A stretch of 64,000 nt of DNA from Homalodisca vitripennis (Eukaryota > Arthropoda > Insecta > Hemiptera > Cicadellidae). How positions within the stretch are numbered: position 1 is the first letter of the stretch; every line of letters begins with the position of its first letter. Below are positions 3,440 to 28,620 of this stretch, in pieces. The notes below the pieces were generated by a model. The model was not told the DNA's origin. It searched no databases and saw nothing but the letters and a program-made list of their open reading frames with translations. The stretch covers positions 120,118,501 through 120,182,500 of the forward strand of contig NC_060215.1 in NCBI RefSeq assembly GCF_021130785.1, read 5' to 3'. Position numbers and translations under genes: made by a program.

Positions 3440-4520
3440 TAAATAAAGTTTAGCTATAAATATAAATTCGGTATAATACAATAATAATACTGTTAATTAT
3501 CTAACAATGTCTCCCTTCTTAACCGACAAATAGGACGAACTTACTAAATTCAGTTGTGTGTTCTTTTATGATTATCTACCGATTTTTTTTTTCAGAACTA
3601 CGAAACAAATTTCTATTCTTTTTTATTAAAAGATGGGTGCCCCAGAGCTGTTCTCTTAAATATTTTATAACGATTAGACAAGTACCGGGTCAGAATGTCA
3701 CTTTGGAAGATTCACGTATGTCCCGTATATGCCAATAGTTAACACAATGTTTCATTTAAATAAATGAAACATTTAACCAAAACTTATTGTATGTAGTAAG
3801 CTTTTTTTAATAAAAAATTTAATTTAAGATCAATATCATCTTAAAACTAGTAATCCCTGAAGTAACTTGAAATGGACACATACAGCTCGGTACATTAAAA
3901 AAATAGTATTCCATTGTAAATAACTAATGTTTTGATTGGTTCAGAGGTGTGAAACTTGTTGACCAATCGGAAACCTAGTTGGTTACTTGTGATGTAAAGC
4001 TACAACAGAACTACTGGGAGCTCTACTTACGTTCTAGTATAGTTTAGCCTTGTAGGCACAGAGTTAGATCCGGATTGAAAGAAGACTCCAGGTTACGGGG
4101 TTATCAGTGAACCCGACAAAAAACCAAATAAAAAGTTGTTAGTTCTTTTAGTTTATTAAAATAAGAAGAATTTTTTATATATACCAATTCAAGCTAAATT
4201 CAGAAACTATAAAATGATTTAAGTGTTCAAAATTTATAGTGAAATGGGATTTAACCAAAATTATATAAAAATAATATAAATTACTAACTGAGCTCAGTGT
4301 GTACAGAAATAAAATTGTAAATTGAATTATACGAGATTAATAATATTTTTTATCTGTTAACACGACAAGACTAGTCATTTGCCAGAACACCGACTCCATT
4401 TAAATATTATTATTTATTAATAAAGAATAATCTGGTTATAGTTATTTGTCATGGAGTATCTCCACAAGAGGATACAGTACATAACTAATAAATATATTTT
4501 ATTAGTCTAACTATGTTATA
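3440..4520. repeat. Repeat family B, copy 1
   Basis: Segments recur at 5800-6180 (same orientation), 31620-32420 (inverted), 35140-35660 and 42930-43640. Shared landmarks include CCAATCGGAAACCTAG, GATCCGGATTGAAAGAAGA and GGAGTATCTCCACAAGAGGA. No coding potential recognised. Confidence 0.75.
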
Positions 4521-13522: not shown

Positions 13523-14462
13523 TGTAACCTCTCAGGATGCCCCTCCCAATAAAAAGTAAACTTGTAAATATTAAATGCATGCATAACAGTAATAAATTTA
13601 GTACTTTTTCAGTACTACGAGCGCTCTATTCCTAGCGACATCACGTTGTCAAGAAGAACGGGGAAGCTGGCGCTGGCGCTAGACAGAAACTTAAAATAAG
13701 TTATTTGTTTGATCGATTAATACATTTTTATTTTATTGTTTAAATCAATTTTTGTCTTCCTTGTACTTTACATAAACCAAGTTCTTGCTGTATTTAAAAT
13801 ATATTATTTGCACACATGTTATTTAAATGATTTAAGTGAACATTTCAGGAAATGAACACACAAGTTTTTGAGAGATATAAATATGTAGCACCATTAAATG
13901 GCCTTAATTTTAGCCAAATAAATGTTTAAATTTTAAACCAAATTGTTTTACAAGATTTATAATTTTTAAAATAAATCTTACAAGCACAATCAATTATTTT
14001 AAGATTTTTGAAAGGACGCAACCCATATTTATAATAGAAGTTTTACTTTGTAAAAGTTTTCATTATTTTCATGATCTCGTAATTATACTGGGAAAAGTAA
14101 ATGAGTTTTAGATGTAGTTTGCGCCTTAGAATGAGACATATCGTAAAATTCAAGAACAAAGTGAATTAAATTAAATTATTTAATGTTTGCTTATGTGACA
14201 AAATGAAGATGGCCACTAGGACAGCCACCTATCAACATCTCATGCTAAATGTGATGATTTAATTACGACCACTAAACTACGTCAACAACTGTCAAATAAT
14301 TATATGTATAGCTAACGCGACATAAACTATTTCTTCACTAATGGAATAATCCCAAAACTGAATCATCCTATGATATGTACTGTGCACTGTATATTTTTAC
14401 TGTGATGCTGCATACATATGTGAACATATTTTGCACTTTTAGTCTTCTTGAGTTCATTTCAA
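13523..14462. other. Possible LTR start, then AT-rich intergenic
   Basis: 13523-13690 starts with TG and contains the inverted repeat-X motif (CTATTCCTAGCGACATCACG). From 13700 to the Polinton no gene is recognised. Confidence 0.4.
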
Positions 14463-14466
14463 TATA

Positions 14467-14472
14467 TATATA
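14467..14472. repeat. Target-site duplication, left (TATATA)
   Basis: Six bases directly outside the left TIR equal the six outside the right TIR (28562-28567). Polintons make 6-bp duplications. Because the host site is (TA)n the identity is necessary but not decisive. Confidence 0.75.
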
Positions 14473-14723
14473 AGTAGATATGAATATGGGGTTCCTAGAC
14501 CACTTTTGGGACAGACAGAAAATCAATGTAAAATACTGTTCATTGAACCATAAACGAATCTATAAATCATGAACTAAAAATAAACGAATCTATAGCTGTT
14601 TGATTCTACTTTCTTAAGCTGAAACTTAGTCAAATATGCTTCGAATCAATCTAATGATCTCATATCTGCTTCAAATCAACGAAAATTCTGTTGTAAATAT
14701 ATTAAAATCTTAATGAAAAATCT
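14473..14723 (+). repeat. Polinton left terminal inverted repeat (251 bp)
   Basis: It begins AGTAGATATGAATATGG and matches the reverse complement of 28311-28561 without a mismatch that I can find; identity stops after 14723. It contains a 14-bp direct repeat (14551-14564 and 14581-14594, 30 bp apart) and a related near-repeat GCTTCRAATCAA (14638 and 14668, again 30 bp apart). These phased repeats could be integrase or terminal-protein binding sites (inference). Confidence 0.95.
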
Positions 14724-14739
14724 TGGAAAAGTTAAAGAA

Positions 14740-14847
14740 AAAATTATTGAAAAAATAGTATAAAGAATTTAAATTACCTCATACCAACCAATATAGTAAT
14801 AAAAGTACTATTTTGTCCTATAACTATACTATTTTTTCAATAATTTT
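14740..14847. repeat. 23-bp perfect inverted repeat (hairpin) inside Polinton left end
   Basis: 14740-14762 and 14825-14847 are perfect reverse complements separated by 62 bases. The stem is AT-rich and lies between the TIR and the PolB start, on the left side only. It could act in replication, termination or RNA structure in the PolB leader (inference). Confidence 0.8.
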
Positions 14848-14969
14848 AAGTCTTAGTTTACAGATTTTTCTATAATAAATAGAAGAATCTATCACTGTTT
14901 CACCAGAAATTGTGCTGATTTCTGTCAAATTCAAGTAAAAATCATTACTTTTTCAAATTCATAGTTAAG

Positions 14970-14990
14970 AAATTTTCCCTATTTAAATGG
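14970..14990 (+). promoter_or_regulatory. TAAATG-type start signal of PolB
   Basis: AAATTTTCCCTATTTAAATGG, with the ATG of PolB as part of the motif. Member of the element-wide signal whose consensus I read as AAAWTTTYCYTATWTAAATGG. Confidence 0.7.
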
Positions 14991-17900
14991 AGAGGAAAAA
15001 GGTATCATGTCCATACTGCAAAAAAGATATTTTTGAACACCATTATACCCGACATTATAATTCGAAAAATCATCTAAAAAATAAAGATATTTATGAAAAA
15101 GAACTAAATTATTTGAGGAATTGGGCTAAAGAAAATCAAATTGTCGATCATGAAAAGATGTACGATATAGAAAAATTGCGTGAATTAAAGAAAAGCTTTA
15201 AGGAAGATAAAAAAGATCTCAATCTATTTAATGATGAAAAAATTCAATCAATCGCTGAAAAATTGTCCATAGAAACAAACGATAAAACTAAGTCTGAAAT
15301 GATCGAAGAAATTGACAAAACTCTTAATGAAAAACCTGAAAATATCATAGATGTAGAAGTTTTATCCTCAATACACGGTCTTTTCAAGCAATACATTTTA
15401 ACGAATTTAAACGATAAGTTCATGTCAATTTACAAATATCTATCAATTATGGGGCCTGAAATTAAAAGTTTAATCGAAAAATTTCAAGAAAATGTTAAAA
15501 ATATGAAGGGCTATCTCTCTTTAGAATGTGAATACGAACGAACTTTAGTAAACGGTGAACGACAAACTTGCCCAATGTACTTTACTATAAAAGCAGACGA
15601 AATCTTCGACGTAAACGACTTTATTACTAAGCAATTTAATAAATTAACACATCGAGAACAGACAAATCATCCAAATAGAGGTTCAGGATGGACATTTAAA
15701 AGATGCAAACAACTAGTTTTGAGCATTAATAAACACGAAATAATGAATGCAGGATCATATATCGATTTACCACAAGAGATAAAGGTAAAAAAAGCTTGTA
15801 TAAATATCAAAAATAAAGATGATTATTGCTTTATTTATTCTATCCGATGTGCTATTGAAAAACCCGAGACACATGTTGACAGAGCAAAACAATATGAAAA
15901 ATTTGTAAATGACGAGATATTTTCAGGTTTCGAGTATCCAATGTCCTTAAAAGATATACAATTATTTGAAAAACGAAGTCACAATTCCAAGTACAAATAT
16001 CCGAAAATGTCAATAAATATCTACAGTTATGATGAGAAACTCAATATTGTTCCGTTGCAAATTTCTGAAAAATATGATGCCGAGTTAGAAATCGATTTAT
16101 TGTATGTTAAACAAGAAGACAAATCTCATTATGTTTTGATAACCGATTTAAATAAACTCGTGAGTTCTCAGTTATCCAAGCATAAGGAAAGAAAATTTCT
16201 TTGTAGACGGTGTTTAAGCCATTTCTACAAATCTGGAGATTTAACAGATCATTTAGAAATTTGCAAACAACATGAAGTTTGTAAGCCAATTATGCCGTTT
16301 CCAGGTCAAACAACATCATTTACTAATTATCAAAAGAAGTTTAGCCATCCGTACGTTATTTATATGGATTTTGAGAGCATATTAGAAAAAATTCCGACAT
16401 GCAAGAACAATCCGCAAAGATCGACTACAATCAAGATTCAGAAGCACATTCCTTATGGTTTTACTCTATATTTAGTTTCGAATGTGACCAATCGCATGTA
16501 TAAACCGATATGTTATCGTGCCAAAAATGAATAAGATTTGCCAAATGTTCCTGCAAAATTGTTTGAAGAACTCAATAAAATATCAAAATACATAGCTACA
16601 AAATATAATTCTAAGAACAAAAAACCTATGAAATTGACTGAAGAAGAAGAAATTTCATACCAAAATGCAAACGTTTGTCATATCTGTGAATGGTCTGCTT
16701 ATGATGTTGGGTCAGTTCAGTATGGTTTTACTCCTGATAGTTGGAAAGATAAGAGTTATAATAAAGTGAGAGATCATTGTCATTTAACCGGCAAGTTTCG
16801 AGGCGCAGCTCATGCATGTTGCAATCTGAATTTGAAATTTCCACAAAACATTCCAGTTTTCTGTCACAATATGAGTAACTATGACACACATTTGTACATA
16901 AAAGAATTAGCTAAGAAATATGGAAACGTTGATTTGATCGCAAACTCAGAAGAAAAATATATAAATTACTCTGTAAATTCTGGATACGGGTATGAGTTTG
17001 ATGGTGACAAACCTAGAAAGTTCATAAAATTCTCTTTCGTAGACACATTTAGATTCATGGCATCGTCTATTGAAAAGTTAGCTAAAAACCTCAAGAAAGA
17101 AGACTTCAAACATACAAATCATTTTATACAAGATGGTCTGAACGCAATTCTAGAAAGACAACCAAATGACGAAGAAGAAATCTTTAAAATTCTATCTGGA
17201 AAAGGCATATTTCCTTACGAATTTATCGATAGTATTGAAAAACTTGATTACACAGAAGACCTGAAAATTCAAGATTTCTATTCACTTTTGACAGACGAGA
17301 GCATATCTGAGAAAGATTATCAACACTATTTGAGCGTTTGGAACAAATTAAAAGAGAAAAATCTAGGAAATTACTCTGATCTCTATAACATCCAAGATGA
17401 TTTATTGCTTGCCGATATATTCGAAAATTTCAGAAACATTTGCTTAAAATGTTATAAACTCGATCCGGCACACTATCTAACAGCTCCCAGTCTTGCATGG
17501 GACGCTATGTTAAAATTAACGAAGATAGAATTACAGTTAATTAGTGATTATAATATGTATTTGATGATTGAAAAAGGTATTCGCGGAGGCATTTCTCAAT
17601 GTATTAAACGATATGTGAAAGCAAATAACAAATATTTGAAAGATTTTGATAAGACAAAGCCCGAAAACTATTTGTTATACGTCGATGCTAATAACCTTTA
17701 TGGGTATGGCCTAATGCAAAAACTGCCGTTTAGTGATATCAAGTGGATGGATCCAAAAACTTACACAACTGCAGAATGGAAAGAAACAATTTTGGAACTC
17801 ACCGGCGACGAAGATTATGGCTATATTCTTGAAGTCGATCTTGGATATCCAACAAATTTACACGAACATCACAAGGATTTGCCTCTTGCTCCTGAACATT

Positions 17901-18919
17901 ATAAAAATAAGTTGTGCACCACTCTATTAGATAAAACTGAATACGTTGTTCATTCGAGAAATTTGAAATTCTATCTGGAACAAGGAATGGTGTTAAAACA
18001 TGTGAATAGAGTTATCGCATTCGATCAGAAGCCTTTTATGAAAGATTACATTGATTTTAACACAAACATGAGAACCAAAGCTACAAGTGACTTTGAGAAG
18101 GACTTTTACAAGTTAATGAACAACTCAGTTTTTGGAAAATCTATGGAAAATGTGAGAAACAGATGTGATATTAGACTAGGAAATGAAGAATTTTCAATGA
18201 AACAAGCTAAGAAAACAAATTTCAAATGCTTTAGTATCTTTGACGACAACTGTATAGCGAGTCACATGTATAAACAGAAAGTAAAATTTAACAAGCCGAT
18301 CTACATAGGATTTTCAGTTCTCGACCTCTCAAAATTGCTAATGTACGAGTTTTATTACAACAAATTAAAGAACTATGATCCAGATTTGAATCTGTGTTAC
18401 ATGGATACAGACAGTTATTTTCTAGAATTAAAACGTGATCCTTACAAAATTATTAAAGAAAATTTGAATGACTTTGATACGAGCGATTATCCAAAAGATC
18501 ATGAATGTTTCGGTACTAAAAATAAGAAAGTCATAGGAAAATTCAAAGACGAACTAAATAGCGAAGTTTTAGAAGAATTTTGTGGTTTAAGATCAAAGAT
18601 GTACTCGTACAAATATCTAGACAAAAATCCAGTTAGGTGTAAAGGAATTAAGAGAAGCGTTGTAAATAAAACAATAAATATCGAAAACTTGAAGAGATGT
18701 TTGTTCGAAGATAAAGAAGAATTTAGGGAGATGACAGTAATCAAAAGCTACAAACATGAGTTGTACACAGTTACCATAAACAAGCTGGCACTGAACGCTA
18801 AAGATGATAAGAGAATTGTCCTAGAAAATAAGATCGATACAGTACCTTATGGCTATAAAAATGAAGCAAAATCTGATATATTAGATGAGTTAAATAAACT
18901 TGGAAACTTTGACATGTAA
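14987..18919 (+). pseudogene. polB: Protein-primed family B DNA polymerase, one in-frame stop
   Basis: Replicative polymerase of the element, 1310 codons, interrupted only by TAA at 16532-16534 (codon 516); the same frame continues to 18919. N-terminal part: a C2H2-like finger (C8, C11, H19, H23), a domain with DDYCF (C281) and SHYVLITD (H381, D387) that resembles a papain/OTU-like Cys-His arrangement, then a second finger (C406, C409, H422, C426). Exo I is YMDFES (D461, E463). After the stop come a CHIC...RDHCH...CNL zinc/HNH-like module (16673-16840), Exo II HNMSNYD, polymerase motif A DANNLYGYG, motif B KLMNNSVFGK and motif C YMDTDS. The length and the LYVDANNLYGYG style fit Polinton pPolB. 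The stop falls between Exo I and Exo II, so the truncated product lacks polymerase activity unless it is read through. The start is chosen at the TAAATGG signal. Confidence 0.93.
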
Positions 18920-18923
18920 ATGG
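18917..18923 (+). promoter_or_regulatory. TAAATGG: PolB stop fused to integrase start
   Basis: The TAA stop of PolB supplies the TAA of the TAAATGG signal, and the integrase ATG follows with no spacing. The upstream T-rich part of the motif is absent here. Confidence 0.6.
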
Positions 18924-19930
18924 AAGATGATTTGATTCACTGCCACAAATGCAAGAAAAAAACGAAAAATATAGATTCTAAAATCGTTCAAACTCAAAAC
19001 GGATTGTATAGAATTGCAGCAAAATGTTCAAAATGTAAGACAAATAAGAGTAAATTTATAAAGAATCCAAATGAAAAACAAGTAAAGAAAGAATCTAAGA
19101 ATAAGGAAGAAATCGAGATTGAAGCTAGAGAAATTCATGCACCAGTACGAAAAAAGTTTAAAAAGAGAAAAATTATAACTTTAGGAATTGACGATTTATG
19201 GGCAGCAGATTTAGTTATAATGTCTAACTATTCGGATCAAAATGATGGATTCAAGTATATGTTAAATGTTATTGATACTTTCTCAAAATATGCTTGGTCA
19301 AGAGCTATCAAAAGAAAAAACGGTAAAGATGTTTCAAAAGCCTTCGAAGATATAGTAAAAGATGCCATAAGGATCAATCACAAACCTCCTAACCTACTTC
19401 ATACAGATAAGGGTTTAGAGTTTAAAAATAAAGAATTTAACGATGTTTTGAGAAAATACAACATTAAGATTTATCATACTGAAAATGAAGAGAAATCAAG
19501 TATTGTAGAGAGATATAACAGAACTCAAAATGAGAGAATGAAAGTAATTTTTGAGATTAATAAAAACTTTAAATGGATCGATATTCTTCAAAAAGTCGTA
19601 AACAATTATAACGATACAGTTCACAGCACAATAAAAATGAAACCGAAAGACGTAGATAAAGATGCAGAAAAGGAGTTATTAGAGACTGTTTTCAAGTATA
19701 TTCCACCAGAAATTCACACGAAAACTAAATTTAAAATCAATGATCATGTAAGAATTTTTAGTAAAAAAACAACATTTTCGAACAAATAAAAGAACAATTG
19801 GTCAAGAGAAATCTTTGTGATTTATCAAATTAATAACACAGATCCTGTAACTTATAGTATAAAAGATTTAAATAATGAAGAAATAACCGGAAAGTTTTAT
19901 GAATATGAATTGAGAAAGTCAAAGCTTTAA
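18920..19930 (+). pseudogene. int: Retroviral-like integrase (DDE), one late in-frame stop
   Basis: Integrates the element. Zinc finger C8-x2-C11...C36-x2-C39 at the N-terminus, then the rve core: D97 (AADLV), D163 (HTDKG) and E197 (VERYN). The first 289 residues are open; TAA at 19787-19789 interrupts, and the same frame continues for 46 more codons with typical end-domain character (WSREIF, then DPVTYSIKDL) to TAA at 19928-19930. The stop therefore removes the C-terminal SH3/chromo-like DNA-binding part while leaving the catalytic core. Starts with no gap after PolB. The N-terminal finger resembles the small ORF at 26340-26483. Confidence 0.93.
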
Positions 19931-19948
19931 TTTTTTCTATATAAATGG
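19929..19948 (+). promoter_or_regulatory. TAAATG-type start signal of zinc-finger gene
   Basis: AATTTTTTCTATATAAATGG directly contains the start codon at 19945 and begins at the end of the integrase frame. Confidence 0.7.
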
Positions 19949-20313
19949 AGGCTGAAAAGAAATGTATAAAGTGTCAAGAATTTAAAGATTTGACGAAGTT
20001 TTCTCAAGATAAGACTAGAAAAGATGGATTATACTATTATTGTAAATATAACAGAGAATTATACGATAAAATAGAAAAATTAACGTTAGAAGAGAAAAAA
20101 TGTTGCGTTTGTAAAGAAATTAAGGATATTTCCAAATTTTACGATTGGCATTATAGTAAAAATAAAAAACATGCACATTGTAAAGATTGTGCTAAAAGAA
20201 TTATTCAAAAAAGTCAAAAGAAACCGACTCTTTGCGAGTGTGGACGAATCATTCAATGGTTACCTCATCTTCAAAAACATTTACAGACAAAATATCATAA
20301 TTCGAGAGTTTAA
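19945..20313 (+). CDS. Small zinc-finger protein (122 aa)
   Basis: Unassigned Polinton protein with three metal-binding clusters. The first is C7-x2-C10...C33 and lacks its fourth cysteine (N36). The second is C53-x2-C56...C79-x2-C82. The last is a C97-x-C99...H108, H112, H118 C2H2-like finger near the C-terminus. The first two have the CxxC-x-x-x-K-x-x-x-x-F style seen in HNH-associated zinc ribbons, but there is no clear nuclease residue set. Start chosen at the TAAATGG signal. Its end overlaps the antisense BRO-N pseudogene (stop at 20249) by 65 bp, a convergent arrangement. A nucleic-acid binding or regulatory role is inference. Confidence 0.8.
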   Translation: MEAEKKCIKCQEFKDLTKFSQDKTRKDGLYYYCKYNRELYDKIEKLTLEEKKCCVCKEIKDISKFYDWHYSKNKKHAHCKDCAKRIIQKSQKKPTLCECGRIIQWLPHLQKHLQTKYHNSRV

Positions 20314-21089
20314 CATGTTCATCGTGTAATTTAGATATTCTATAAATCAGTCGAGATTCTGCCATATTTGTAGTAAAATGATTTCCGTTGTATAAAATAT
20401 TCAAAGATTCTTTCATTTGGTTATACAGATTGATAGAATTTGGTTCGTCATCAATGAACAAAATCTCTAATTCAGGATAATTTATTTTTAGATGTTTTAA
20501 TCGGTTTGGTATTTCTCGTTTCTGAGCTCTGATAACGTAATAAGGCCATTCCCACATGTGATTCTTCTTAATTAACACAAAAACATGGTGTTTTTTCTTA
20601 TCAAAATCTTTACAAACAAGGTCTGGTTTCATTAAGTCAATTTTTACACTTTGTTTTGCGATTATTTCCGTTTTGATTTCATCTTTAATTTGCAAGTGTT
20701 TAACTTCGTCCTCTAAATATTTAATCTTGTTTTCAAGTTTGTACTCACCAAATTTACGAATACTTGGCAAAACTTCTTCTAAAACCCAATCTTGAAACAT
20801 TTCTGCTATCTTCGTTTTTGATTTCAGTATTAAAGAATATATGCCCGGTTCATTAATGAAAATAGTGTTTTTTTGAAAGTTTGAAGGCAAGAACGATTCG
20901 TTCCCCCCTTCTGAATCTATATTATCGTAGTTTTTTATATTTGTCTTTAACGTGATCTCTAATCGCTTTCATCGTATTTTTTAATTCCAATATTTCTGCA
21001 ATATCTTTTGCTCAAAATTCATTATTTTCGTCAACAAATGTTAAAATTTCTTTATTATTGAATTTGAGTAGATTCACAGCTGACTCCAT
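20249..21089 (-). pseudogene. BRO-N domain protein with DUF3627-like C-terminus, broken
   Basis: Minus-strand gene whose proper start is the ATG at 21089 inside CTATCTAAATGG. The BRO-N domain is interrupted by TGA where the sister copy has tryptophan (about codon 26) and by a one-base frameshift in an A-run near 20930; after that the frame is open for 213 residues. These contain the rest of BRO-N (NEPGIYSLILKSK, then VLPSIRKFGEY), a coiled coil and a C-terminal module (HVFVLIKKN ... WPYYVIRAQK) like the DUF3627 region found after BRO/MSV199 domains in insect DNA viruses. BRO proteins bind DNA and are thought to modulate replication or transcription. Confidence 0.85.
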
Positions 21090-21108
21090 TTAGATAGAAA
21101 AGAAATTT
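21086..21108 (-). promoter_or_regulatory. TAAATG-type start signal of BRO-N copy 1
   Basis: On the minus strand T-rich then CTATCTAAATGG, nearly identical to the signal of the next BRO-N copy at 21398-21419. Confidence 0.7.
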
Positions 21109-21110
21109 AA

Positions 21111-21401
21111 CTAGTAATTTTTATTTCGAGAATAAAGGCCAGATTCATTAACGAAAATAGTGTCAGGATGAAGATTTTGAAAGGGTCTATGGCATAGACT
21201 CTTGTAATTTATATATTTAAAGGCTATTTTCTCGTCATTATCAATATTATTTATGATAGCTTGTCTAGTATTTTCATATTGTAAAATTTCTGCAACATCT
21301 TTAGCCTTAAACCAGATCACATTGTTTTCGTCTACAATCGTTAAGATATTCGTGTTATCGAATGTAAGTTGATTATTTCTTAGATCTATGACTGACTCCA
21401 T
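21111..21401 (-). pseudogene. Truncated BRO-N gene (96 aa), tandem duplicate
   Basis: Encodes only an N-terminal BRO-N domain: TIVDENNVIWFKAKDVAEIL, then HPDTIFVNESGLYSR, after which the frame leaves the family pattern and stops. It is parallel to the N-terminal part of the neighbouring 20249-21089 gene (both start MES and share VDEN and AKD.AEIL), so it is a tandem duplicate that lost the C-terminal part. A short BRO protein could still be made. Start at TAAATGG. Confidence 0.8.
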
Positions 21402-21419
21402 TTAGATAGAAAAAAATTT
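21398..21419 (-). promoter_or_regulatory. TAAATG-type start signal of BRO-N copy 2
   Basis: Minus strand AAATTTTTTTCTATCTAAATGG with the ATG at 21401. Confidence 0.7.
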
Positions 21420-21545
21420 AACAAGCAATTATTATTTTGAGTTTAAAGGTCGAAAATAGTGTCTGGATGTAATTTTTGTAAGAGTCGCGATTCGATACCC
21501 TTGAAAATGTATATCTTCTAGTCTTTTCTTGAAAGTTTAAAGGTA
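21420..21545 (-). pseudogene. Third BRO-N remnant
   Basis: On the minus strand a short stretch again encodes LHPDTIF, followed directly by sequence like the 3' end and leader of the preceding copy (compare 21111-21180). It is an internally deleted remnant of a third tandem BRO-N unit. Confidence 0.6.
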
Positions 21546-21569
21546 AGCTATTCAATAGCTCCCCATGAT

Positions 21570-22310
21570 TCATGTCCGTTGCTTCAACAATCTTAAATAT
21601 ATTGTTGTTTTACTCTCATTATTTAATAAATTTCCCTCAGAGTCTTGTATAGTTAGAACGATTTTTTGAATTCTTTTAATATTTTTTCTAATTAGAATAT
21701 AATCAATTTCATTCGGTTTTTCACTGATTTTTGATCCATAAGCAACATTTGGAAAGAAAGTGTACAAAATTTCCGATTCTTTGTGAAGATGTTCGGTATG
21801 ATTTTCAAAACTAGGTTCAACGAGATTACAATGTACTTCAATTACATCAAACGGTCTAAATTTTGGCGTTTTATTTCCTAAATATACCTGATTTGGCTCA
21901 ATAGTTTCTTGAACAAACCCTAATAAATCTACTATAATTGCTGAAAACATTATTCTTACTGGTGATTTTATTTGAATTTTATTAGAGAGATAATTTTTTT
22001 GCATTTCAAACTTGTTTTCGTCAAAGTTTAAAGATTTATCTGATTGTTTGAATGTTTTCAGATAATTTTTAAGGGAATTTTTTATTTGATCGAAGGTATA
22101 ATATCCTTTGTTTAAACCATAATATTTTGTTATGTTCTTCTCACTAAATCCTATACAATAAGGAGAACTTTCACTAATATTTATTACAAAATTTTCAGAA
22201 TAAAAACCGCTTAAACCGATAAAATAATTTGATTCTTCCTCTAAATGAATAGGATGTTCCAAGTTTAAAAATAATTTAGAGCTTTCTGAAGTCAACTTGA
22301 ACATCTTCAT
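21570..22310 (-). CDS. Minor capsid protein (penton-like, single jelly roll; PX)
   Basis: 246 aa, open. The C-terminal half has the pattern of Polinton penton-like proteins: FDVIEVHCNLVEPS, then LYTFFPNVAYGSKISEKP, DYILIRKN, and a final strand with TIQDSEGNLLNNES before a C-terminal LRLL. Its expected role is the vertex capsomer of the icosahedral shell. It is divergent from the ATPase gene with 40 bp between starts; the start region (GGGAAAATGAAG) lacks a clear TAAATG signal, but the palindromic TATTTAAATA-like core of the ATPase signal could serve both directions (inference). The second ATG two codons downstream is an alternative start. Confidence 0.85.
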   Translation of the reverse strand: MKMFKLTSESSKLFLNLEHPIHLEEESNYFIGLSGFYSENFVINISESSPYCIGFSEKNITKYYGLNKGYYTFDQIKNSLKNYLKTFKQSDKSLNFDENKFEMQKNYLSNKIQIKSPVRIMFSAIIVDLLGFVQETIEPNQVYLGNKTPKFRPFDVIEVHCNLVEPSFENHTEHLHKESEILYTFFPNVAYGSKISEKPNEIDYILIRKNIKRIQKIVLTIQDSEGNLLNNESKTTIYLRLLKQRT

Positions 22311-22334
22311 TTTCCCAAGCGTTGCTTCAAGATG

Positions 22335-22354
22335 AAAATCTTCTATTTAAATGG
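22335..22354 (+). promoter_or_regulatory. TAAATG-type start signal of ATPase
   Basis: AAAATCTTCTATTTAAATGG containing the ATG at 22351, in the divergent spacer to the penton-like gene. Confidence 0.7.
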
Positions 22355-23016
22355 AGAAATTTTTAAAGCAAAAAGATCAGATAAAACTTCAAACTTTTGA
22401 AGAAAAAAAGAAAGATCAACCAATCAGATTGTTAATTGTTGGTTCAAGTGGATGTGGAAAAACAACTTTATTATTGAATTTTATCTACAATAGGTTGATT
22501 CCTTATTCCAATTTGTATGTTTTTAGTAAATCTTTAGAACAAGACGCCTATAAAAAATTACAAGAAAGATTTGAAAATATTGAGAAAAACTTAAACAAAA
22601 AAATATCACATTTTTATAATGCTTCTGAGGACATAGTTCCGTTAAGCAAATGTAAACCCAATTCGTTAATCGTTTTTGATGATTGTATTTTGGAAAATCA
22701 GGACGTTATTAAGGAATATTTCGTAATGTCTCGTCACAAAAACATATCTTGTATCTATCTTTCCCAATGCTTTTCAAAGGTTGATAAACAAGTTATTAGA
22801 AATAATTTGAATATGTTGTGTGTTTTTAAGCAAGATGATCACTATTCGAGAAAGATTTATAACAATTATGTTGGTTCTGATATGAGTTTTAACCACTTTA
22901 TTGAGTTGTGTGATAAAATTTGGAAGGAAGACTACGGATTTTTAACAATTAATCTAACTTTGAAGCCTAAAAATGGTAAATATTTGAATAAATTTTCTGA
23001 TATAAATGCTGCTTAG
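22351..23016 (+). CDS. Genome-packaging ATPase (FtsK/HerA, A32-like)
   Basis: 221 aa, open. Walker A VGSSGCGKTT (G31-T39, with K37) and Walker B SLIVFDD (D110, D111) followed by C/I, and the SRHKNISCIYLSQ segment (about residues 129-141) typical of the sensor region of viral packaging ATPases. It is expected to pump DNA into preformed capsids. The C-terminal region overlaps a small membrane ORF at 23006 in another frame. Confidence 0.93.
   Translation: MEKFLKQKDQIKLQTFEEKKKDQPIRLLIVGSSGCGKTTLLLNFIYNRLIPYSNLYVFSKSLEQDAYKKLQERFENIEKNLNKKISHFYNASEDIVPLSKCKPNSLIVFDDCILENQDVIKEYFVMSRHKNISCIYLSQCFSKVDKQVIRNNLNMLCVFKQDDHYSRKIYNNYVGSDMSFNHFIELCDKIWKEDYGFLTINLTLKPKNGKYLNKFSDINAA
22996..23008 (+). promoter_or_regulatory. 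TATAAATG signal of small membrane ORF
   Basis: GATATAAATGC within the 3' end of the ATPase gene provides the TAAATG core for the overlapping 35-aa ORF; the T-rich upstream part (AATTTTCTGATATAAATG) is also recognisable. Confidence 0.5.
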
Positions 23017-23113
23017 TGGTCTGACAAATTTACTCGATAAAATATTTGTTACAATTATTTTTACATTATCTTTACTTTTTATTTACATTATGAAAACAAC
23101 TGAAAAACGGTAA
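23006..23113 (+). CDS. Putative 35-aa single-pass membrane protein
   Basis: Short ORF beginning at an ATG in the TATAAATG context inside the last codons of the ATPase gene, in the +1 frame, and ending in TAA at 23111-23113. It has one strongly hydrophobic segment (KIFVTIIFTLSLLFIYIM) followed by a basic tail (KTTEKR). Small membrane proteins are common in related viruses, but I do not recognise a family. Support is the start-signal match and the composition only. Confidence 0.5.
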   Translation: MLLSGLTNLLDKIFVTIIFTLSLLFIYIMKTTEKR

Positions 23114-23118
23114 ATCTG

Positions 23119-23239
23119 TTCACGTTTTCACGCTTCGTGTTCACGTTTTACGTTCCACGTTCACGTTTTCACGCTTCGTGTTCACGTTTTACGTTCCACG
23201 TTCACGTTCTCGTTCTCGTTCTCGTTCACGTTCACGTTT
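23119..23239. repeat. CACGTT-rich minisatellite (2 x 41 bp plus CGTTCT run)
   Basis: Two 41-bp units (starts 23119 and 23160) built of TTCACGTTTT- and ACGTTCCACG-type words, then a partial third unit and CGTTCT repeats. Much richer in CG than the surrounding element. Lies between the membrane ORF and the PLA2 gene. Confidence 0.9.
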
Positions 23240-23240
23240 C

Positions 23241-23261
23241 AAAATTTTCCTAAATAAATGG
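23241..23261 (+). promoter_or_regulatory. TAAATG-type start signal of PLA2 fusion gene
   Basis: AAAATTTTCCTAAATAAATGG with the ATG at 23258. Confidence 0.7.
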
Positions 23262-24565
23262 CGAACGTAACTTCAGAAGAAGCAAAAAAACTTGATCAAA
23301 TAGAAAAGAAATTAATCAAAGAATTTAAAGAACAGATTCGAATGGATGAAAAAGAACAAGAATTTATTCAAAAAATTAATCAACCTGTAACTTCTGCAAT
23401 AAAAAATGTTGAGGGCAAAATTGAAAATGTTTTAAGCGATAATCAAAATTTAATGAATTTGGTTCCAGTTGTACGACAGTTTGCCGATATTTCGATACCA
23501 GAATCTGAGTTTGAATTGCCAAAATTACCATCGTCGACACCATTTAGACCTCGAATCATTGAAGACTCTACCATAGTTGAACCAATAAGTCCTGGAACAA
23601 CGGATATAATAATTGGTGAAATTGGTAAAAAATTTCTTCCTAGAGCAAAGGATGATAAATTTGGTTTGTATTGGGACAGAAAAAAGAAAAGTTTTATGAT
23701 TGGAAATTTGCCAGTGAATTTTGAACATAATGATATCATTATTAATGAAAAAACATATGAAGGAACTCAAGGTTTATGGAGATTATTACCAGACCATAAC
23801 GCTCCAAAAGATAATTTATATTCTGAAGAAGATTTGAAAAAGTATACAGAAATTTTATGGGAATCTGACTCAATTTACAAAAATAATGATCCATCTACTA
23901 AGAAGCCTAAGTCAAGTAAAGGTAAAAAATATCTCAATTTGATTAAACCAATTTGGGAAAAACGAATCGAAGGATCAGGTGTAAGAAAATACAGTGATAA
24001 TAAGATTGAGTACAGATATATCAACGATTTGACAAAACTCGATGGAATTATTAATTATATTTATGCTCAAGAAAAGGCTGGAAACAACAATTTTTTGAAC
24101 GAAAAGAAAGCAATTAAAGATTTTATTTCGAACAAACTTGACGAAATGATTGAAAAACCTGATGGAATTAAATATTTAAAACGAATTTTGCCGGCAATAA
24201 GTTCATCTATGATTGAGGGTAGTGGACTTTTGAATGATTTTATCAACAATTTACCTTTTGAATTACACGTACCAACTTATCAGTATCTGGGGCCTGGCAC
24301 AAAACTCGAAAAAAGACTAAAAAGAGGAGATCCTGGTATAAATAAATTAGATCAAGCTGCTATGGAACACGATATTTTTTATGCAAAACATAGAGACACA
24401 AATTCCAGACATATAGCAGATAAAGTTTTGCAAGATAAAGCAATGGATAGATTTTTATCAAAAGATGCTAGTTTAGGTGAAAGATTTGTTGCGCTTCCAA
24501 CAGCTGGAGCAATGTTTTTGAAGAGAAAACTAGGAATTGGAATCGAAGAGAACTTGAAATTTTAA
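23258..24565 (+). CDS. Virion protein with C-terminal phospholipase A2 domain
   Basis: 435 aa, open. Residues 132-177 hold a conserved module (FGLYWD, IGNLPV, YEGT.GLWRLLP) seen in many insect Polinton-type ORFs, function unknown. Residues 341-400 match the parvovirus-type PLA2: Ca-loop YLGPG (343-347) and catalytic H371-D372 in AMEHDIFYAKH. Two IEGSG sites (I237-G241 and I319-G323) fit the adenain consensus (M/I/L)-x-G-x|G, so the element's own protease could cut out a middle piece and free the PLA2 domain (inference). PLA2 domains of this kind breach endosomal membranes during entry in parvoviruses. The C-terminus is hydrophobic with basic residues. Confidence 0.88.
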   Translation: MANVTSEEAKKLDQIEKKLIKEFKEQIRMDEKEQEFIQKINQPVTSAIKNVEGKIENVLSDNQNLMNLVPVVRQFADISIPESEFELPKLPSSTPFRPRIIEDSTIVEPISPGTTDIIIGEIGKKFLPRAKDDKFGLYWDRKKKSFMIGNLPVNFEHNDIIINEKTYEGTQGLWRLLPDHNAPKDNLYSEEDLKKYTEILWESDSIYKNNDPSTKKPKSSKGKKYLNLIKPIWEKRIEGSGVRKYSDNKIEYRYINDLTKLDGIINYIYAQEKAGNNNFLNEKKAIKDFISNKLDEMIEKPDGIKYLKRILPAISSSMIEGSGLLNDFINNLPFELHVPTYQYLGPGTKLEKRLKRGDPGINKLDQAAMEHDIFYAKHRDTNSRHIADKVLQDKAMDRFLSKDASLGERFVALPTAGAMFLKRKLGIGIEENLKF

Positions 24566-24577
24566 CTATATAAATGG
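24557..24577 (+). promoter_or_regulatory. TAAATG-type start signal of core-protein gene
   Basis: AAATTTTAACTATATAAATGG, overlapping the end of the PLA2 gene; ATG at 24574. Confidence 0.7.
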
Positions 24578-24993
24578 AGGTGAATGTAAATTTCAGCAAA
24601 AATCAGAAAGAAAAAATAAAATCCGCTTTTAAGAAGAAAATACCCGTTAGTATTCAATTTAAAATAGATCAACTAAAAAATGGCGAAGATAAGATATTTT
24701 TAACAAATAGACAATGCAATAAACTCGAAAAACATAAGAAAAACAATAAAGGAACCAGAATAGAATTTTCTTATAATCAGTTGAAAGAACTTAAAAATGG
24801 TGGACTTTTGAAAGATTTATTAGATTTTGGAGAAAATATTCCAGTTGTTAAAAATGTTGTTCCTTATGTTCGTAAAGCTGCTCCAATCGTTAAAAAGGAT
24901 GTGATTCCTATTGTTCGAAACATTTTAAATTGGTTAGATAAAGAGTTGGAAGATGTTACAGGATCTGGATTAGATGAAAAAACTTTGAATTAA
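24574..24993 (+). CDS. Core/pX-like basic protein with amphipathic C-terminus
   Basis: 139 aa. The N-terminal half is lysine-rich with LTNRQCNKLEKHKK...IEFSYNQLKELKNGG, a pattern I associate with the X/pX-like proteins of adintovirus-type elements (family assignment from memory, unverified). The C-terminal half is amphipathic (IPVVKNVVPYVRKAAPIVKK), compatible with a membrane-active or DNA-binding peptide. V128-T-G-S-G132 near the C-terminus matches the adenain-type cleavage rule, leaving an 8-residue tail. It starts 8 bp after the PLA2 stop codon. Confidence 0.7.
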   Translation: MEVNVNFSKNQKEKIKSAFKKKIPVSIQFKIDQLKNGEDKIFLTNRQCNKLEKHKKNNKGTRIEFSYNQLKELKNGGLLKDLLDFGENIPVVKNVVPYVRKAAPIVKKDVIPIVRNILNWLDKELEDVTGSGLDEKTLN

Positions 24994-24997
24994 GTGA

Positions 24998-25438
24998 AAT
25001 CAAACATTGAAAAAAAAATTTAAACCTTTAACATTCGGGGAATTGGAAGAAATCTGCAAAAATATTAAACATTTTAGAGGAATCTTCATGAGAGATACAT
25101 TACCTGAAAAAGTTAAGAAATTTGAATGTGGAATTGTGAATTTAGACTCGATTATGGGAAGTGGAACGCATTGGATTTGTTATTATAAAAATGATAAGAA
25201 TGCATGTTATTTTGATTCGTATGGAAGAATTGAGGACAAACCACCTATAGAATTGATTAAATATTTGAAAAAATCAAGCGTCTACTACAATGATTCTCAG
25301 ATTCAAGACTATAAAGATCCCCCAATTTGTGGTCATTTATGTGTTTTTGTGTTGAATGAACTGAGTGATGGTAAAGATTTTAAAGAAGTTGTTAACAAAT
25401 TATTACTTAATAAATATGGATTCACAAAATATTTTTGA
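24998..25438 (+). CDS. Adenain-type cysteine protease, no ATG at its N-terminus
   Basis: The maturation protease of the capsid (peptidase C5-like). Counting from TTG at 25007 (143 aa): GTHWICYY gives catalytic His55, CYFDSYG gives Asp70 in place of the adenovirus Glu, Gln98/Gln100 precede the nucleophile as the oxyanion residue, and PPICGHLC gives Cys108. All catalytic residues are present. The frame is open from 24998 but no ATG occurs before 25088 (MRDTLPEK), which would remove residues 1-27. So either a non-ATG start is used, the start codon has been lost, or the protein is short. It lies 3 bp after the core-protein stop. Confidence 0.88.
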   Translation, partial: NQTLKKKFKPLTFGELEEICKNIKHFRGIFMRDTLPEKVKKFECGIVNLDSIMGSGTHWICYYKNDKNACYFDSYGRIEDKPPIELIKYLKKSSVYYNDSQIQDYKDPPICGHLCVFVLNELSDGKDFKEVVNKLLLNKYGFTKYF

Positions 25439-26321
25439 CGTATTTGGAACACAAATTATTCAAAATGTAGATAATAGTTTGAATTTTGATAGTTTGAGAA
25501 ATGAGTTTGATAACAAGTTAGAAAATGTATTACAAAACCTTCCAGATTCAGATATGTTTGCTGTCGAGATTGAAGATTTTAAAGCAGAATATGATAACAA
25601 ACTTGCAAATTTCATGAGTTCAAATGAAGTTGCTGATAAAATAAAAACATTGAAAAAAGAATTTGAAGATGGTGCAAAAAAAATATTTACCAATTTAATG
25701 TCTCATATCGAAAAAGCTGATAAAATTACTGAAGCGATCAAAGTTGAAAAGAATTATGTTAGTTTGGCTAATAAAAAAAGAATTGTCGGTGTTCGACCTG
25801 GTATTGACAAACATGATGTTGTTGTTAAAGAACAAATTTTAAAACCTCTAAAATTATCAGAAAACATCGATATTGTTGATTTACATGATCCGAATGTTAA
25901 AAATGCCTTAGATTTTAAAGGAAAAAGAATTAGCAGTGTTAGTAAAGGAATTAATCCATTTGATGTTGTTGTAATGATTCAATTAGAAGATCCTATTAAA
26001 ATGTTTAATGAACTAAAACAAAATTATGAGAATCATAAACAGCATGTTAAAGATTTTACAACAGAAGTCTATGAAAAACTTGATGAAAGAAGTAAAAGAT
26101 CAGTAGACGATGTTGGTGAAATTAATGAAAAACTTACTAGATTTAAAGAGTCTTTTGATAAGTTTAGTTTAGATGCTACGAAAACTTTTGAGAATATTGG
26201 TCATAAATTTGTTGAATACAATGATTCTTATGCTGTCAAATTTCAAAAATTAGAAGAAAAAATTAATAAGTTCGAGGAAGATCTTACTGAAATAGGTATT
26301 CTCGCAGGGTTTTATGCATGA
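25416..26321 (+). CDS. Fiber-like coiled-coil protein
   Basis: 301 aa from ATG 25416 (AATAAATATGG; this start overlaps the protease end by 23 bp and is preferred over the upstream in-frame ATG at 25365, which lies deep in the protease gene). Heptad-rich helices at 20-115 and 195-290 flank two copies of a motif, KKRIVGVRPGIDKHDVVVKE (120-139) and GKRISSVSKGINPFDVVV (169-186). The pattern KRI..V..PI...DVV.K resembles the trimerising repeats of phage and viral tail or fiber shafts (KRI.NV..P....DAV.K). A receptor-binding or spike role is inference. Confidence 0.7.
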   Translation: MDSQNIFDVFGTQIIQNVDNSLNFDSLRNEFDNKLENVLQNLPDSDMFAVEIEDFKAEYDNKLANFMSSNEVADKIKTLKKEFEDGAKKIFTNLMSHIEKADKITEAIKVEKNYVSLANKKRIVGVRPGIDKHDVVVKEQILKPLKLSENIDIVDLHDPNVKNALDFKGKRISSVSKGINPFDVVVMIQLEDPIKMFNELKQNYENHKQHVKDFTTEVYEKLDERSKRSVDDVGEINEKLTRFKESFDKFSLDATKTFENIGHKFVEYNDSYAVKFQKLEEKINKFEEDLTEIGILAGFYA

Positions 26322-26322
26322 T

Positions 26323-26343
26323 AAAATTTCCTTATATAAATGG
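26323..26343 (+). promoter_or_regulatory. TAAATG-type start signal of 47-aa zinc-finger ORF
   Basis: AAAATTTCCTTATATAAATGG with ATG at 26340. A full copy of the signal in front of such a small ORF argues that the ORF is real. Confidence 0.7.
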
Positions 26344-26483
26344 CGCTCATATACTGTGTGAGATGTAAAGAAAAAACTGCAACATGTGATATAAAATACT
26401 ATGCAAATATCAATGGAGTTAAAAGAGTTTCTGGAAAATGTGCTGAATGTAACGCTAAAAAGAGCCAATTTATAAAAACTTGA
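26340..26483 (+). CDS. 47-aa zinc-finger protein related to integrase N-terminus
   Basis: Two CxxC knuckles, C6-x2-C9 and C34-x2-C37, with a central KYYANINGVKRVSGKC segment and a KKSQFIKT end. This parallels the first 48 residues of the integrase (CHKCKKKT...YRIAAKCSKC...KSKFIK). It resembles the short DUF5679-type zinc ribbons of large DNA viruses. Function unknown; it could be a free-standing copy of the integrase finger. Confidence 0.75.
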   Translation: MALIYCVRCKEKTATCDIKYYANINGVKRVSGKCAECNAKKSQFIKT

Positions 26484-26509
26484 AATTTTTTCCTAATAAA
26501 TAGAGATGG
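26482..26509 (+). promoter_or_regulatory. Modified TAAATG-type signal (TAAATAGAGATGG)
   Basis: The signal reads CCTAATAAATAG: the usual ATG has become ATA, and translation probably starts at an ATG 6 bases downstream (26506). Confidence 0.6.
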
Positions 26510-26904
26510 CGGGACATTACAGTGCTTTCGATCTTTTTATAATGCAACACGAAAGAGATTTGAAAAAAGAACATTGGGATGATATTTCTCAAAAATATGA
26601 ATTATCCGAAGATATGATGAGATTATACGTAAACAAATTGAATTGGTATAACATTGCTAAATATCAAAATCTGTCCCCAGAGTTCATTCAAGAAAATATA
26701 CATTATCAATTAAAAGATCATATGTCTGTTCTTTGTCTCTATCAACACTTGAGTATAAAATTTTTGGATGAAAATAAAGATACAGTTGATTGGAACAATA
26801 TTATAGATAGCGGTTACTATCCTGTGCAAATTTTATTGAAATATGTGGCCGAAATTGCAAAATTTAAGGAAGAGAATCCCGAATATGACGAAGTAGATCA
26901 TTAA
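26506..26904 (+). CDS. W/LS-repeat protein (132 aa)
   Basis: Contains at least three copies of a degenerate 23-26-residue repeat: W24-DDISQKYELSEDMM, W47-YNIAKYQNLSPEFI, then LCLYQHLSIKFL (76-87) and W96-NNIIDSGYYPVQIL. The pattern W..I..YQ.LS..FI occurs in proteins of nucleocytoplasmic large DNA viruses and phages, where it is of unknown function. Located between capsid-module genes, so a virion or assembly role is possible. No catalytic motif. Confidence 0.7.
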   Translation: MAGHYSAFDLFIMQHERDLKKEHWDDISQKYELSEDMMRLYVNKLNWYNIAKYQNLSPEFIQENIHYQLKDHMSVLCLYQHLSIKFLDENKDTVDWNNIIDSGYYPVQILLKYVAEIAKFKEENPEYDEVDH

Positions 26905-26996
26905 TAATGACTAAAATTTATATCTTTTCTTATAAAAACGTACATTAGATCGATGAAAAAATGATATCTTTCTTATACATGATGTTTAAAATTTCT

Positions 26997-27017
26997 AAAT
27001 TTTCTCTTATTAAATGG
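26997..27017 (+). promoter_or_regulatory. TAAATG-type start signal of major capsid gene
   Basis: AAATTTTCTCTTATTAAATGG with ATG at 27014. The 109 bp upstream hold two weaker look-alikes (CTTTTCTTATAAAA near 26925, CTTTCTTATACATG near 26970). Confidence 0.65.
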
Positions 27018-28198
27018 CGGACTACAGAAAATATGCTAGTGATATTGAAAGGGCGGAGTTTAAAAATTTCTATCCAAGTAGTAAACAACATTTGAATGAA
27101 CCGAATAAAAGAACTGAGTTTAATATTGATTTTGGAGATAACTTTTGCTCGTCTAACTTCCAGTTTTATATTTCTGGAACTTTAACAAAACAAGATGGTC
27201 AAGCATATCTTGGAACTGATAATGTTAGATTAATCGATAATTTTATACCGTTTTTATTTTCTAAGATTGAAGTAAGAAAACACAATAAATTGATAGAAGA
27301 AGTCGAAAACTGTGGTCAGTTAAGCACTATTAAAGGAACTATTTCGTATTCAAAAAGTGATGTATTTTCAAACAGTTTTGAATCAACTTTTAAATTTGGA
27401 CAATTTGAAGCGGTCGGTGATTTAGCACATTTCGGCTTAGGATTCTTTGAAAATGTAAATTTTCCAATCTATAAAGGTGGATTTTACATTAGTTTCATAA
27501 GAGCTGAAGACGATGATGTGATTCTGAAGACTGCAACTGGAAATGTTATGCCTGTTGATGGCAAAATTACAATTAACGAGTTTTTCATTAGAGTTCCGAT
27601 GATTTATTACAAAACCACGAGTAAAATTCAGTTGATTGATGAAATTACAAAATCTCAAAACATTATGTTTAATTTTCTAGATTGGCAATGTATTGAGCAA
27701 AAAGGTATTTCCGGAACAACTTATTCGTTCGATATCACAAATATTTATAGAAATATCTTCAATCCTAAGTTTGTTATTATAGGTTTTCAAACAGATAGAC
27801 AGAATAATCAAGAGAAAAATCCTTCAAAGTTTGATAGTTTGAATGTAAAAAATATCAGAGTAAAATTGAACGGTTCTTATTATCCAGATGAATTACAAAA
27901 TTTAAACATTTCAGGAGGTCTTTTCAGAATCATGTATCAGATGTATCAAGATTTTAAGAAAGTTTACTACAAAAATATGGAAATGTATTATAATCCTAAA
28001 GAATTTTTAGCGAATAGACCTATTTATGTCATTGATACCACAAAGAGTTTGACAAATATTTCTGCTTCAAAGAACGATATAATTATCAATATGGATTTTC
28101 AAAATGCTGTTACAAACGCGATTTGTTATGTTGTTGTTGTTTCTGAGAAATTTTTATCATATGACGTGATTAAGAACGATATTAGAGAAATCCAGTAA
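27014..28198 (+). CDS. Major capsid protein candidate (hexon-like, double jelly roll; PY)
   Basis: 394 aa, open, the last gene before the right TIR. Beta-rich throughout; the segment FNPKFVIIGFQTDRQNNQ, then FDSLNVKNIRVKLNGSYYP, followed by YQMYQDFKK matches the region between jelly rolls in Polinton major capsid proteins. The N-terminus (DYRKYASDI) and the strong beta character fit. The length is near that of compact double-jelly-roll proteins. Expected to form pseudo-hexameric capsomers. Assignment is from pattern and position, with no structure prediction available. Confidence 0.82.
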   Translation: MADYRKYASDIERAEFKNFYPSSKQHLNEPNKRTEFNIDFGDNFCSSNFQFYISGTLTKQDGQAYLGTDNVRLIDNFIPFLFSKIEVRKHNKLIEEVENCGQLSTIKGTISYSKSDVFSNSFESTFKFGQFEAVGDLAHFGLGFFENVNFPIYKGGFYISFIRAEDDDVILKTATGNVMPVDGKITINEFFIRVPMIYYKTTSKIQLIDEITKSQNIMFNFLDWQCIEQKGISGTTYSFDITNIYRNIFNPKFVIIGFQTDRQNNQEKNPSKFDSLNVKNIRVKLNGSYYPDELQNLNISGGLFRIMYQMYQDFKKVYYKNMEMYYNPKEFLANRPIYVIDTTKSLTNISASKNDIIINMDFQNAVTNAICYVVVVSEKFLSYDVIKNDIREIQ

Positions 28199-28310
28199 AA
28201 TTTTAGATTTCTTGATTTTTCATTCCATTTCAGAGATTTTTTATTAAGATTTTAATATATTTACCACACAATTTCCGTTTATTCGAAACAGATATGAGAA
28301 CATTGGCAAT
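28199..28310. repeat. Right subterminal spacer with 71-bp partial TIR copy
   Basis: 28233-28303 repeats the innermost 71 bp of the right TIR (28312-28382) at a 79-bp offset with about ten mismatches. No gene. Confidence 0.8.
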
Positions 28311-28559
28311 AGATTTTTCATTAAGATTTTAATATATTTACAACAGAATTTTCGTTGATTTGAAGCAGATATGAGATCATTAGATTGATTCGAAGCATAT
28401 TTGACTAAGTTTCAGCTTAAGAAAGTAGAATCAAACAGCTATAGATTCGTTTATTTTTAGTTCATGATTTATAGATTCGTTTATGGTTCAATGAACAGTA
28501 TTTTACATTGATTTTCTGTCTGTCCCAAAAGTGGTCTAGGAACCCCATATTCATATCTA

Positions 28560-28561
<2 letters not shown>
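28311..28561 (-). repeat. Polinton right terminal inverted repeat (251 bp)
   Basis: Exact inverted copy of the left TIR, ending in CATATCTACT and followed by TATATA. Just inside it, 28233-28303 is an imperfect direct copy of the innermost TIR part (28312-28382), 79 bp apart, with no counterpart at the left end. Confidence 0.95.

Positions 28562-28620
<59 letters not shown>
28562..28620. repeat. (TA)n microsatellite at Polinton right flank, including TSD
   Basis: About 29 TA units directly abut the right TIR; the first six bases form the right copy of the target-site duplication. A short TA run (14463-14472) abuts the left end, so the element split a pre-existing TA tract. Confidence 0.9.

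Follow-up and report, generated by a model that had tools for sequence, protein, structure and literature searches.

A poxvirus-late-like start signal shared by most genes of a leafhopper Polinton

Animal Polintons have capsid genes but no recognised RNA polymerase, and we know of no account of how gene expression is achieved in them. The question is raised here by a Polinton (Maverick) of 14.1 kb located at 14462-28572 of a 64,000-nt stretch of the Homalodisca vitripennis genome (contig NC_060215.1, positions 120,118,501 to 120,182,500), hereafter the window. Most genes of this element were found to begin at one common signal, in which T-rich DNA is followed by TAAAT, and the signal is supported as a shared, element-wide core promoter or initiator with the layout of poxvirus late promoters and a near-zero leader. 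No shared promoter motif or start signal of animal Polintons was described in the accessible portions of the open-access literature, including PMC8097293, PMC10328495, PMC11071296 and PMC8363768, the subscription literature lying mostly outside that scope.

The nine starts marked as full motif in Table 1 have a T-rich tract, a spacer of about 5 bp and TAAATGG with the ATG embedded, at the base given by the first-pass annotation of this DNA. The annotation had counted at least ten starts by adding 26506 as a degraded form. The TAAAT of this gene is complete, however: it occupies 26497-26501, and AGAG-ATGG comes after it. Two further positions had been reported as the core alone. This holds for 18920, where TAAATGG has no T-tract; the TAA serves the preceding open reading frame (ORF) as stop codon, and the site was not counted as a signal. 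At 23006 it does not hold, as a T-tract is present and a hydrophobic ORF of 35 aa starts there. The signal of the penton gene (ATG 22310, minus strand) was absent from the earlier list.

The alignment of the 13 window sites was anchored on TAAAT, so its occurrence in 13/13 sites follows from the choice of sites. The consensus consisted of an A-tract, a T-tract, C at -5 (11/13), T at -4 (10/13), TAAAT, and then G or A. Vaccinia late promoters have a T-containing core of about 20 bp and a gap of 5-7 bp, with TAAAT(G/A) marking the start site (PMC5294985), and TAAATG is found at an entomopoxvirus gene (PMC3061580). The leafhopper signal is similar in its parts. T was found at -10..-8 from the T of TAAAT in 11-12 of the 13 sites, the end of the pyrimidine tract at -6/-5 leaves about 5 bp to TAAAT, and TAAAT overlaps the start and is followed by G in 10 sites and A in 3. 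In contrast to poxvirus late promoters, the leafhopper signal lies in a Polinton without a recognised RNA polymerase or late factor, stands on replication and capsid genes alike, and has the extra A-tract and the C at -5. As in virophages of the mavirus type, one motif occurs on most genes, with 11 sites prominent by score and 23006 by its ORF and conservation. The ATPase and penton signals have a TTTAAA palindrome in common and point in opposite directions. The intergenic gaps often consist of just the motif (8, 18 and 22 nt) and leave little room for a leader, and the divergent penton and ATPase ATGs are 13 nt apart in short variants. Both the layout and the element-wide distribution agree with the earlier proposal of a common poxvirus-late-like promoter with a very short leader.

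The enrichment over shuffled sequence predicted by that proposal was found: TTHHYTWWHTAAATGG occurred 8 times in the element against a mean of 0.036, and none of 500 dinucleotide shuffles reached 8. TAAATGG was located at 8 of the 14 starts of ORFs of at least 90 aa and at 4 of the 490 other ATGs of the element (Fisher p 1.5e-11), two of these four being 21089 and 26340. The result of a looser scan was weaker, as TTTYYTATNTAAATGG with up to 2 mismatches gave 10 sites in the 64-kb window vs 4.33 expected, and 2 of 100 shuffles reached 10. With a leave-one-out matrix of positions -20..-1, 6/9 sites outscored all 495 other ATGs of the element and all 1,769 ATGs outside it, and the remaining three were equalled or outscored by 1-2 element ATGs and 0-7 outside ATGs. 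The nine sites, minus the G, served to train an ATG-independent matrix, which was applied to every window position on both strands. Eleven sites were prominent, with 14.9 bits or more; chance sites were detected at 50269 outside the element (15.4 bits) and at 19157 on the minus strand of the element (14.7 bits), the latter being antisense in the integrase gene with TAAAC.

Searches covering the 2.30-Gb genome resulted in 11,256 exact occurrences of TTTTCTATNTAAATGG against 22 of the reversed control. With one mismatch the contrast was weaker, 19,155 against 1,763. The 26506-form of the signal had 2,793 exact matches and its reversed control 0, which suggests about that many elements or more. 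Similarity without function, arising from duplicated gene starts or AT-rich composition, is hardly credible in the light of these values. The two bro starts are indeed duplicates, and because of this 21089 and 21401 are not independent; however, the motif is common to genes without other likeness, is better conserved than its flanks, and far exceeds both the shuffles and the reversed genome-wide control. All four sampled sites of accessory genes (G000 C1 88213, 9640654, 71674 on the minus strand, and 186481) were opened by the signal, and in all four the blastn similarity to the window was the motif alone, 16-28 bp. The signal therefore travels with genes that are absent from the element of the window. 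Two accessory proteins, alike by eye, were observed: MEFLKEL... (three sites, one with an internal stop) and MALLQEL... (one site). Nine listed T-form sites of C1, 88213 being the sampled one, each had a 26506-type signal 2.5-4.5 kb upstream, in most cases at about 2.5 or 3.7 kb, a spacing pointing to longer Polinton subfamilies.

The conservation was determined with 20 fetched copies, 11 to 20 of which were aligned per start, namely those with the longest BLAST stretch spanning the start; copy L163 lacks most starts. Mismatch rates refer to distinct rows compared with the window row at eight starts (94 comparisons), gaps being counted separately (128/940, 13.6%, in -20..-11). The comparisons are not independent because the copies are related and recombine. 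The TAA at -3..-1 had 0/94 changes at each position. The mismatch was 4.0% in -20..-1, 13.5% in -80..-21 and 9.5% in codons 2-10. The signal was retained at 26340 and 19945 where the upstream DNA of some copies is exchanged, and the PolB signal was identical in 16/16 further copies, in a region that hardly varies.

The spacing between TAAAT and ATG bears on whether the signal is one for transcription or for translation. As insertions relative to the window are not displayed in the copy alignment, the penton/ATPase and 26506 spacings were recounted on raw stretches. At 26506 the gap was 4 nt in the window and in 19/20 copies, L164 having no match there. At the penton gene it was 34 nt in the window and 10 copies and 7 nt in 8 copies, with two copies lacking a match. 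The invariance of TAA next to diverging or replaced upstream DNA and the separability of TAAAT from the ATG therefore favour a transcription-start signal over a translation context, and from the sequence evidence transcription would very probably start at TAAAT. A translation-start context of the Kozak or short-leader type is in agreement with the ATG embedded at most sites and with G at +4 in 91/94 comparisons, three rows having ATGA instead of ATGG. This explanation is largely refuted and very unlikely, since the signal stands apart from the ATG at 26506 and at the penton gene, the conserved tract extends 20 bp upstream, and T, which is unfavourable at -3 in animal (Kozak) start contexts, stands there in all comparisons. 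Among relatives from other species, a G-starting codon at residue 2 was found in 19/29 full-length major capsid proteins (MCPs) and 36/104 full-length ATPases, while the rates over residues 3-15 were 28% and 20%, respectively. Rows that were shorter or did not begin with M were excluded, and the test is weak because A/E at position 2 is common anyway. A polycistronic role, in which the motif lets ribosomes restart past the upstream stop in one long transcript, would fit the several starts placed 0-22 nt after the preceding stop. Yet genes on both strands carry the signal, among them PolB, which comes first, and the divergent penton/ATPase pair with its spacing of 13-40 nt, and this makes such a role highly improbable.

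The mechanism proposed here is as follows. The motif (A-tract, T/pyrimidine tract, spacer of about 5 bp, TAAAT, G/A) would be the core promoter common to leafhopper Polinton genes, and transcription would begin within TAAAT, resulting in mRNAs that mostly have almost no templated leader. Slippage of the polymerase on AAA may give the transcripts a short 5' poly(A) leader and so enable translation, by analogy with vaccinia, where slippage on TAAAT yields 5' poly(A) leaders, and with yeast virus-like elements, where the same occurs with TAAAN (PMC6211774). The polymerase would be supplied in trans by a co-infecting cytoplasmic poxvirus-like DNA virus, the Polinton being a satellite of the mavirus type. 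No RNA polymerase family was matched by the proteins of the element in profile searches, which bears out the first-pass annotation. It had concluded that host RNA polymerase II (Pol II) would have to read the signal. This does not follow, as another route, via the late promoter of the giant virus CroV, is described for mavirus-like type-4 elements (PMC8547959, PMC10945749). Type-4 endogenous mavirus-like elements (EMALEs) carry the CroV late promoter motif (PMC8547959), and CroV infection reactivates type 4, only one of eight EMALE types having responded (PMC10945749). Two features make a viral polymerase the foremost candidate, namely the poxvirus-late layout of the signal and the lack of a recognised RNA polymerase among the genes of the element. 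The reading that we put first, at close to an even chance, is an element-wide initiator for which a co-infecting cytoplasmic virus provides a poxvirus-type polymerase, in the way that mavirus relies on the late promoter of CroV. A wider proposal, made tentatively, is that insect Polintons of the lineage studied depend as satellites on a poxvirus-like DNA virus of the cytoplasm. The many genomic copies would be silent until the leafhopper is infected, and the viral polymerase would then read the TAAAT promoters of nearly every Polinton gene.

The same transcription-start signal could be read by nuclear host Pol II, as an element-specific initiator with short leaders and perhaps a bound host factor. 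We regard this as a serious contender, at somewhat less than an even chance. The copies lie in the host genome, the absence of a polymerase family match in the element is also in line with Pol II, CTATATAAAT at some sites is TATA-like, and a close relative from another sharpshooter is present in UniRef. The ATGGCG at 23258, 26340, 26506 and 27014 resembles a YY1/Pho site. However, a TATA box would place the start about 30 nt inside the gene, yet 12 aligned MCP relatives (41-92% identity) begin at the window ATG or no more than a few residues from it, and TATAAAT was found at 4/13 sites only. The YY1-like letters are not kept, as base +5 changes in 14/94 comparisons. Poly(A) signals after the stops were not enriched, with 6 sites after 15 ORFs vs about 6.25 expected.

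Several observations weigh against the reading put first. Integration places the copies in the host genome, with Pol II within reach, and a short AT-rich signal of T-rich DNA and TAAAT could be a product of convergence. If the Cuerna arida relative in UniRef derives from a transcriptome, the MCP may be transcribed without a known helper. The integrase and the protease lack a full signal, and the scores of 23006 (11.2 bits) and 25416 (10.0 bits) are within the background of the window. The T-tract is partly cut or replaced in eight copies, those with the short variant of the ATPase promoter, and copy L159 has lost it at bro 21401. All the conservation comes from one genome, and the test was confined to it because no Polinton DNA was found from other species. 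The MCP gave no relative in viral and genome contig collections with single-sequence and alignment queries, and the ATPase gave none in genome contigs (single query), viral contigs (alignment query) or phage records. Pox_VLTF3 gave no match in the host genome, but the control of that search was silent as well. The poxvirus early terminator T5NT was counted 19 times on the plus strand and 53 times on the minus strand, numbers confounded by strand composition.

Compared with other known systems, the leafhopper Polinton is like mavirus and type-4 EMALEs in being integrated, in encoding a capsid and in having a single AT-rich promoter motif common to its genes. It differs in that their core is TCTA (PMC8547959), present at 4/13 window sites, and in having an insect host and no known helper, whereas their helper is CroV. 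The yeast cytoplasmic pGKL1/2 have a similar TAAAN initiator at the mRNA start (PMC6211774); in contrast to the leafhopper Polinton they have RNA polymerase and capping enzyme genes of their own, and their upstream element is another one. The initiators of the African swine fever virus (ASFV) type are likewise AT-rich, located at the start site and associated with slippage leaders, while the late initiator is TATA and the leaders are mostly AU or AUAU (PMC7163114). The ASFV-type (TATA) and CroV-type (TCTA) initiators fit the leafhopper signal less well.

A single, strongly conserved poxvirus-late-like signal makes the question of Polinton expression testable. Were a viral polymerase in use, this would indicate a helper virus, much as the type-4 EMALE motif indicated CroV, a virophage-type system would exist in an animal, and hyperparasitism of large DNA viruses would extend to animals. 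Even if Pol II reads the signal, the motif serves as a gene finder, as it has led to the 35-aa ORF and to a gene family that the window copy lacks.

Table 1. Genes and start signals of the Polinton in window coordinates.
Feature	Coordinates	Strand	Remarks
PolB region	14987..18919	+	split in the window copy into ORFs 14987-16534 and 16628-18919
PolB N-terminal ORF signal	14970..14990	+	full motif; ATG 14987
Integrase (rve)	18920..19789	+	PF00665, 1.7e-12
Zinc-finger-like gene	19945-20313	+
Zinc-finger-like gene signal	19928..19948	+	full motif; ATG 19945
Second bro copy signal	21086..21106	-	full motif; ATG 21089; ORF broken after 25 aa in the window
First bro copy (Bro-N)	21111-21401	-
First bro copy signal	21398..21418	-	full motif; ATG 21401
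Penton-like minor capsid protein	21570..22310	-	identified by fold
Penton gene signal	22345..22366	-	TAAAT 34 nt before ATG 22310; 17.2 bits, rank 9
A32-like packaging ATPase	22351..23016	+	PF04665, 3.5e-9
Packaging ATPase signal	22334..22354	+	full motif; ATG 22351
35-aa hydrophobic ORF	23006..23113	+	one membrane span by eye
35-aa ORF signal	22989..23009	+	overlaps the ATPase stop; 11.2 bits
PLA2-domain gene	23258-24565	+	PF08398, 3.4e-10
PLA2-domain gene signal	23241..23261	+	full motif; ATG 23258
Gene 24574-24993	24574-24993	+
Gene 24574-24993 signal	24557..24577	+	full motif; ATG 24574; overlaps the stop codon of the preceding gene
Gene 25416-26321	25416-26321	+
Gene 25416-26321 weak candidate signal	25396..25416	+	TAAAT directly 5' of ATGG; 10.0 bits, not above background
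47-aa DUF5679 zinc-ribbon gene	26340-26483	+	PF18930, 4.2e-8
DUF5679 gene signal	26323..26343	+	full motif; ATG 26340
Gene 26506-26904	26506-26904	+
Gene 26506-26904 signal	26482..26505	+	TAAAT 4 nt before ATG; 14.9 bits, rank 12
Double-jelly-roll major capsid protein	27014..28198	+	PF21738, 2.2e-29
Major capsid gene signal	26997..27017	+	full motif; ATG 27014

The assignment of the element as a Polinton relies on its terminal inverted repeats, two 262-nt arms (14462-14723 and 28311-28572) that are 100% complementary, and on its gene set. The rve integrase, A32-like ATPase, double-jelly-roll MCP and penton are those of the adintoviruses and animal Polintons. Other domains in the element were Bro-N and DUF3627 pieces, a PLA2-domain protein and a DUF5679 zinc ribbon. 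Neither PolB ORF matched a PolB-type Pfam or NCBIfam profile and the second had no PDB sequence match; the region is presumed to be PolB from its PolB-like sequence motifs and from the gene position. The predicted penton model also matches the mavirus penton, with a high root-mean-square deviation for that match (11.4 Å). The candidate for an adenovirus-type protease was weak, with a Peptidase_C5 E value of 0.012, below the cut-off. Its frame (24995-25438) extends 5' of the first ATG at 25088 to the stop at 24995, without an ATG in between by eye, and the 19 copies aligned over this stretch resemble one another. The candidate signal of 25416 is kept in the copies, but lies inside this protease ORF.

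The bro region (20249-21401, minus strand) is a tandem partial duplication with its own signal at each start, the frames being broken in the window copy. In copies L171-L173 a single bro ORF of 269-278 aa was found in each. A repeat outside the element, at 4402 (minus), 6490, 31674 and 43549 (minus) of the window, also holds TTTAAATGGAGT, in a fixed context and without a T-tract.

Of the capsid matches scored in the genome, 101/105 had no internal stop (the best 105 of 11,572 candidates). The nearest capsid relative was that of the sharpshooter Cuerna arida, with 91% identity, and another, from Graphocephala atropunctata, was 79% identical over 59% of the query. The ATPase P0061, labelled Vibrio cholerae in UniRef, was 77% identical to that of the window over 72% of the window ATPase; the label is probably a contamination or a mislabelling. 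A search with P0016 for a divergent family within this genome was rejected, as the three fetched matches were members of the same family. Inverted pairs of PolB 5' ends about 12-21 kb apart were located in G000 on C7339, C3843, C9 (18.7 and 44.8 Mb) and C5 (7.5 Mb), which suggests head-to-head or palindromic Polinton copies.

The 35-aa ORF at 23006 and its signal were full-length in 16 of the 20 matched copies (23 stretches searched). The exceptions were L161, which is truncated, L164, shifted by one base in the extraction, and L172 and L173, which have lost the core and the ATG. The commonest differences from the window were three synonymous changes (codons 9, 10 and 32) and one nonsynonymous change (codon 31), and the predicted product is likely to be a small membrane protein of the element.

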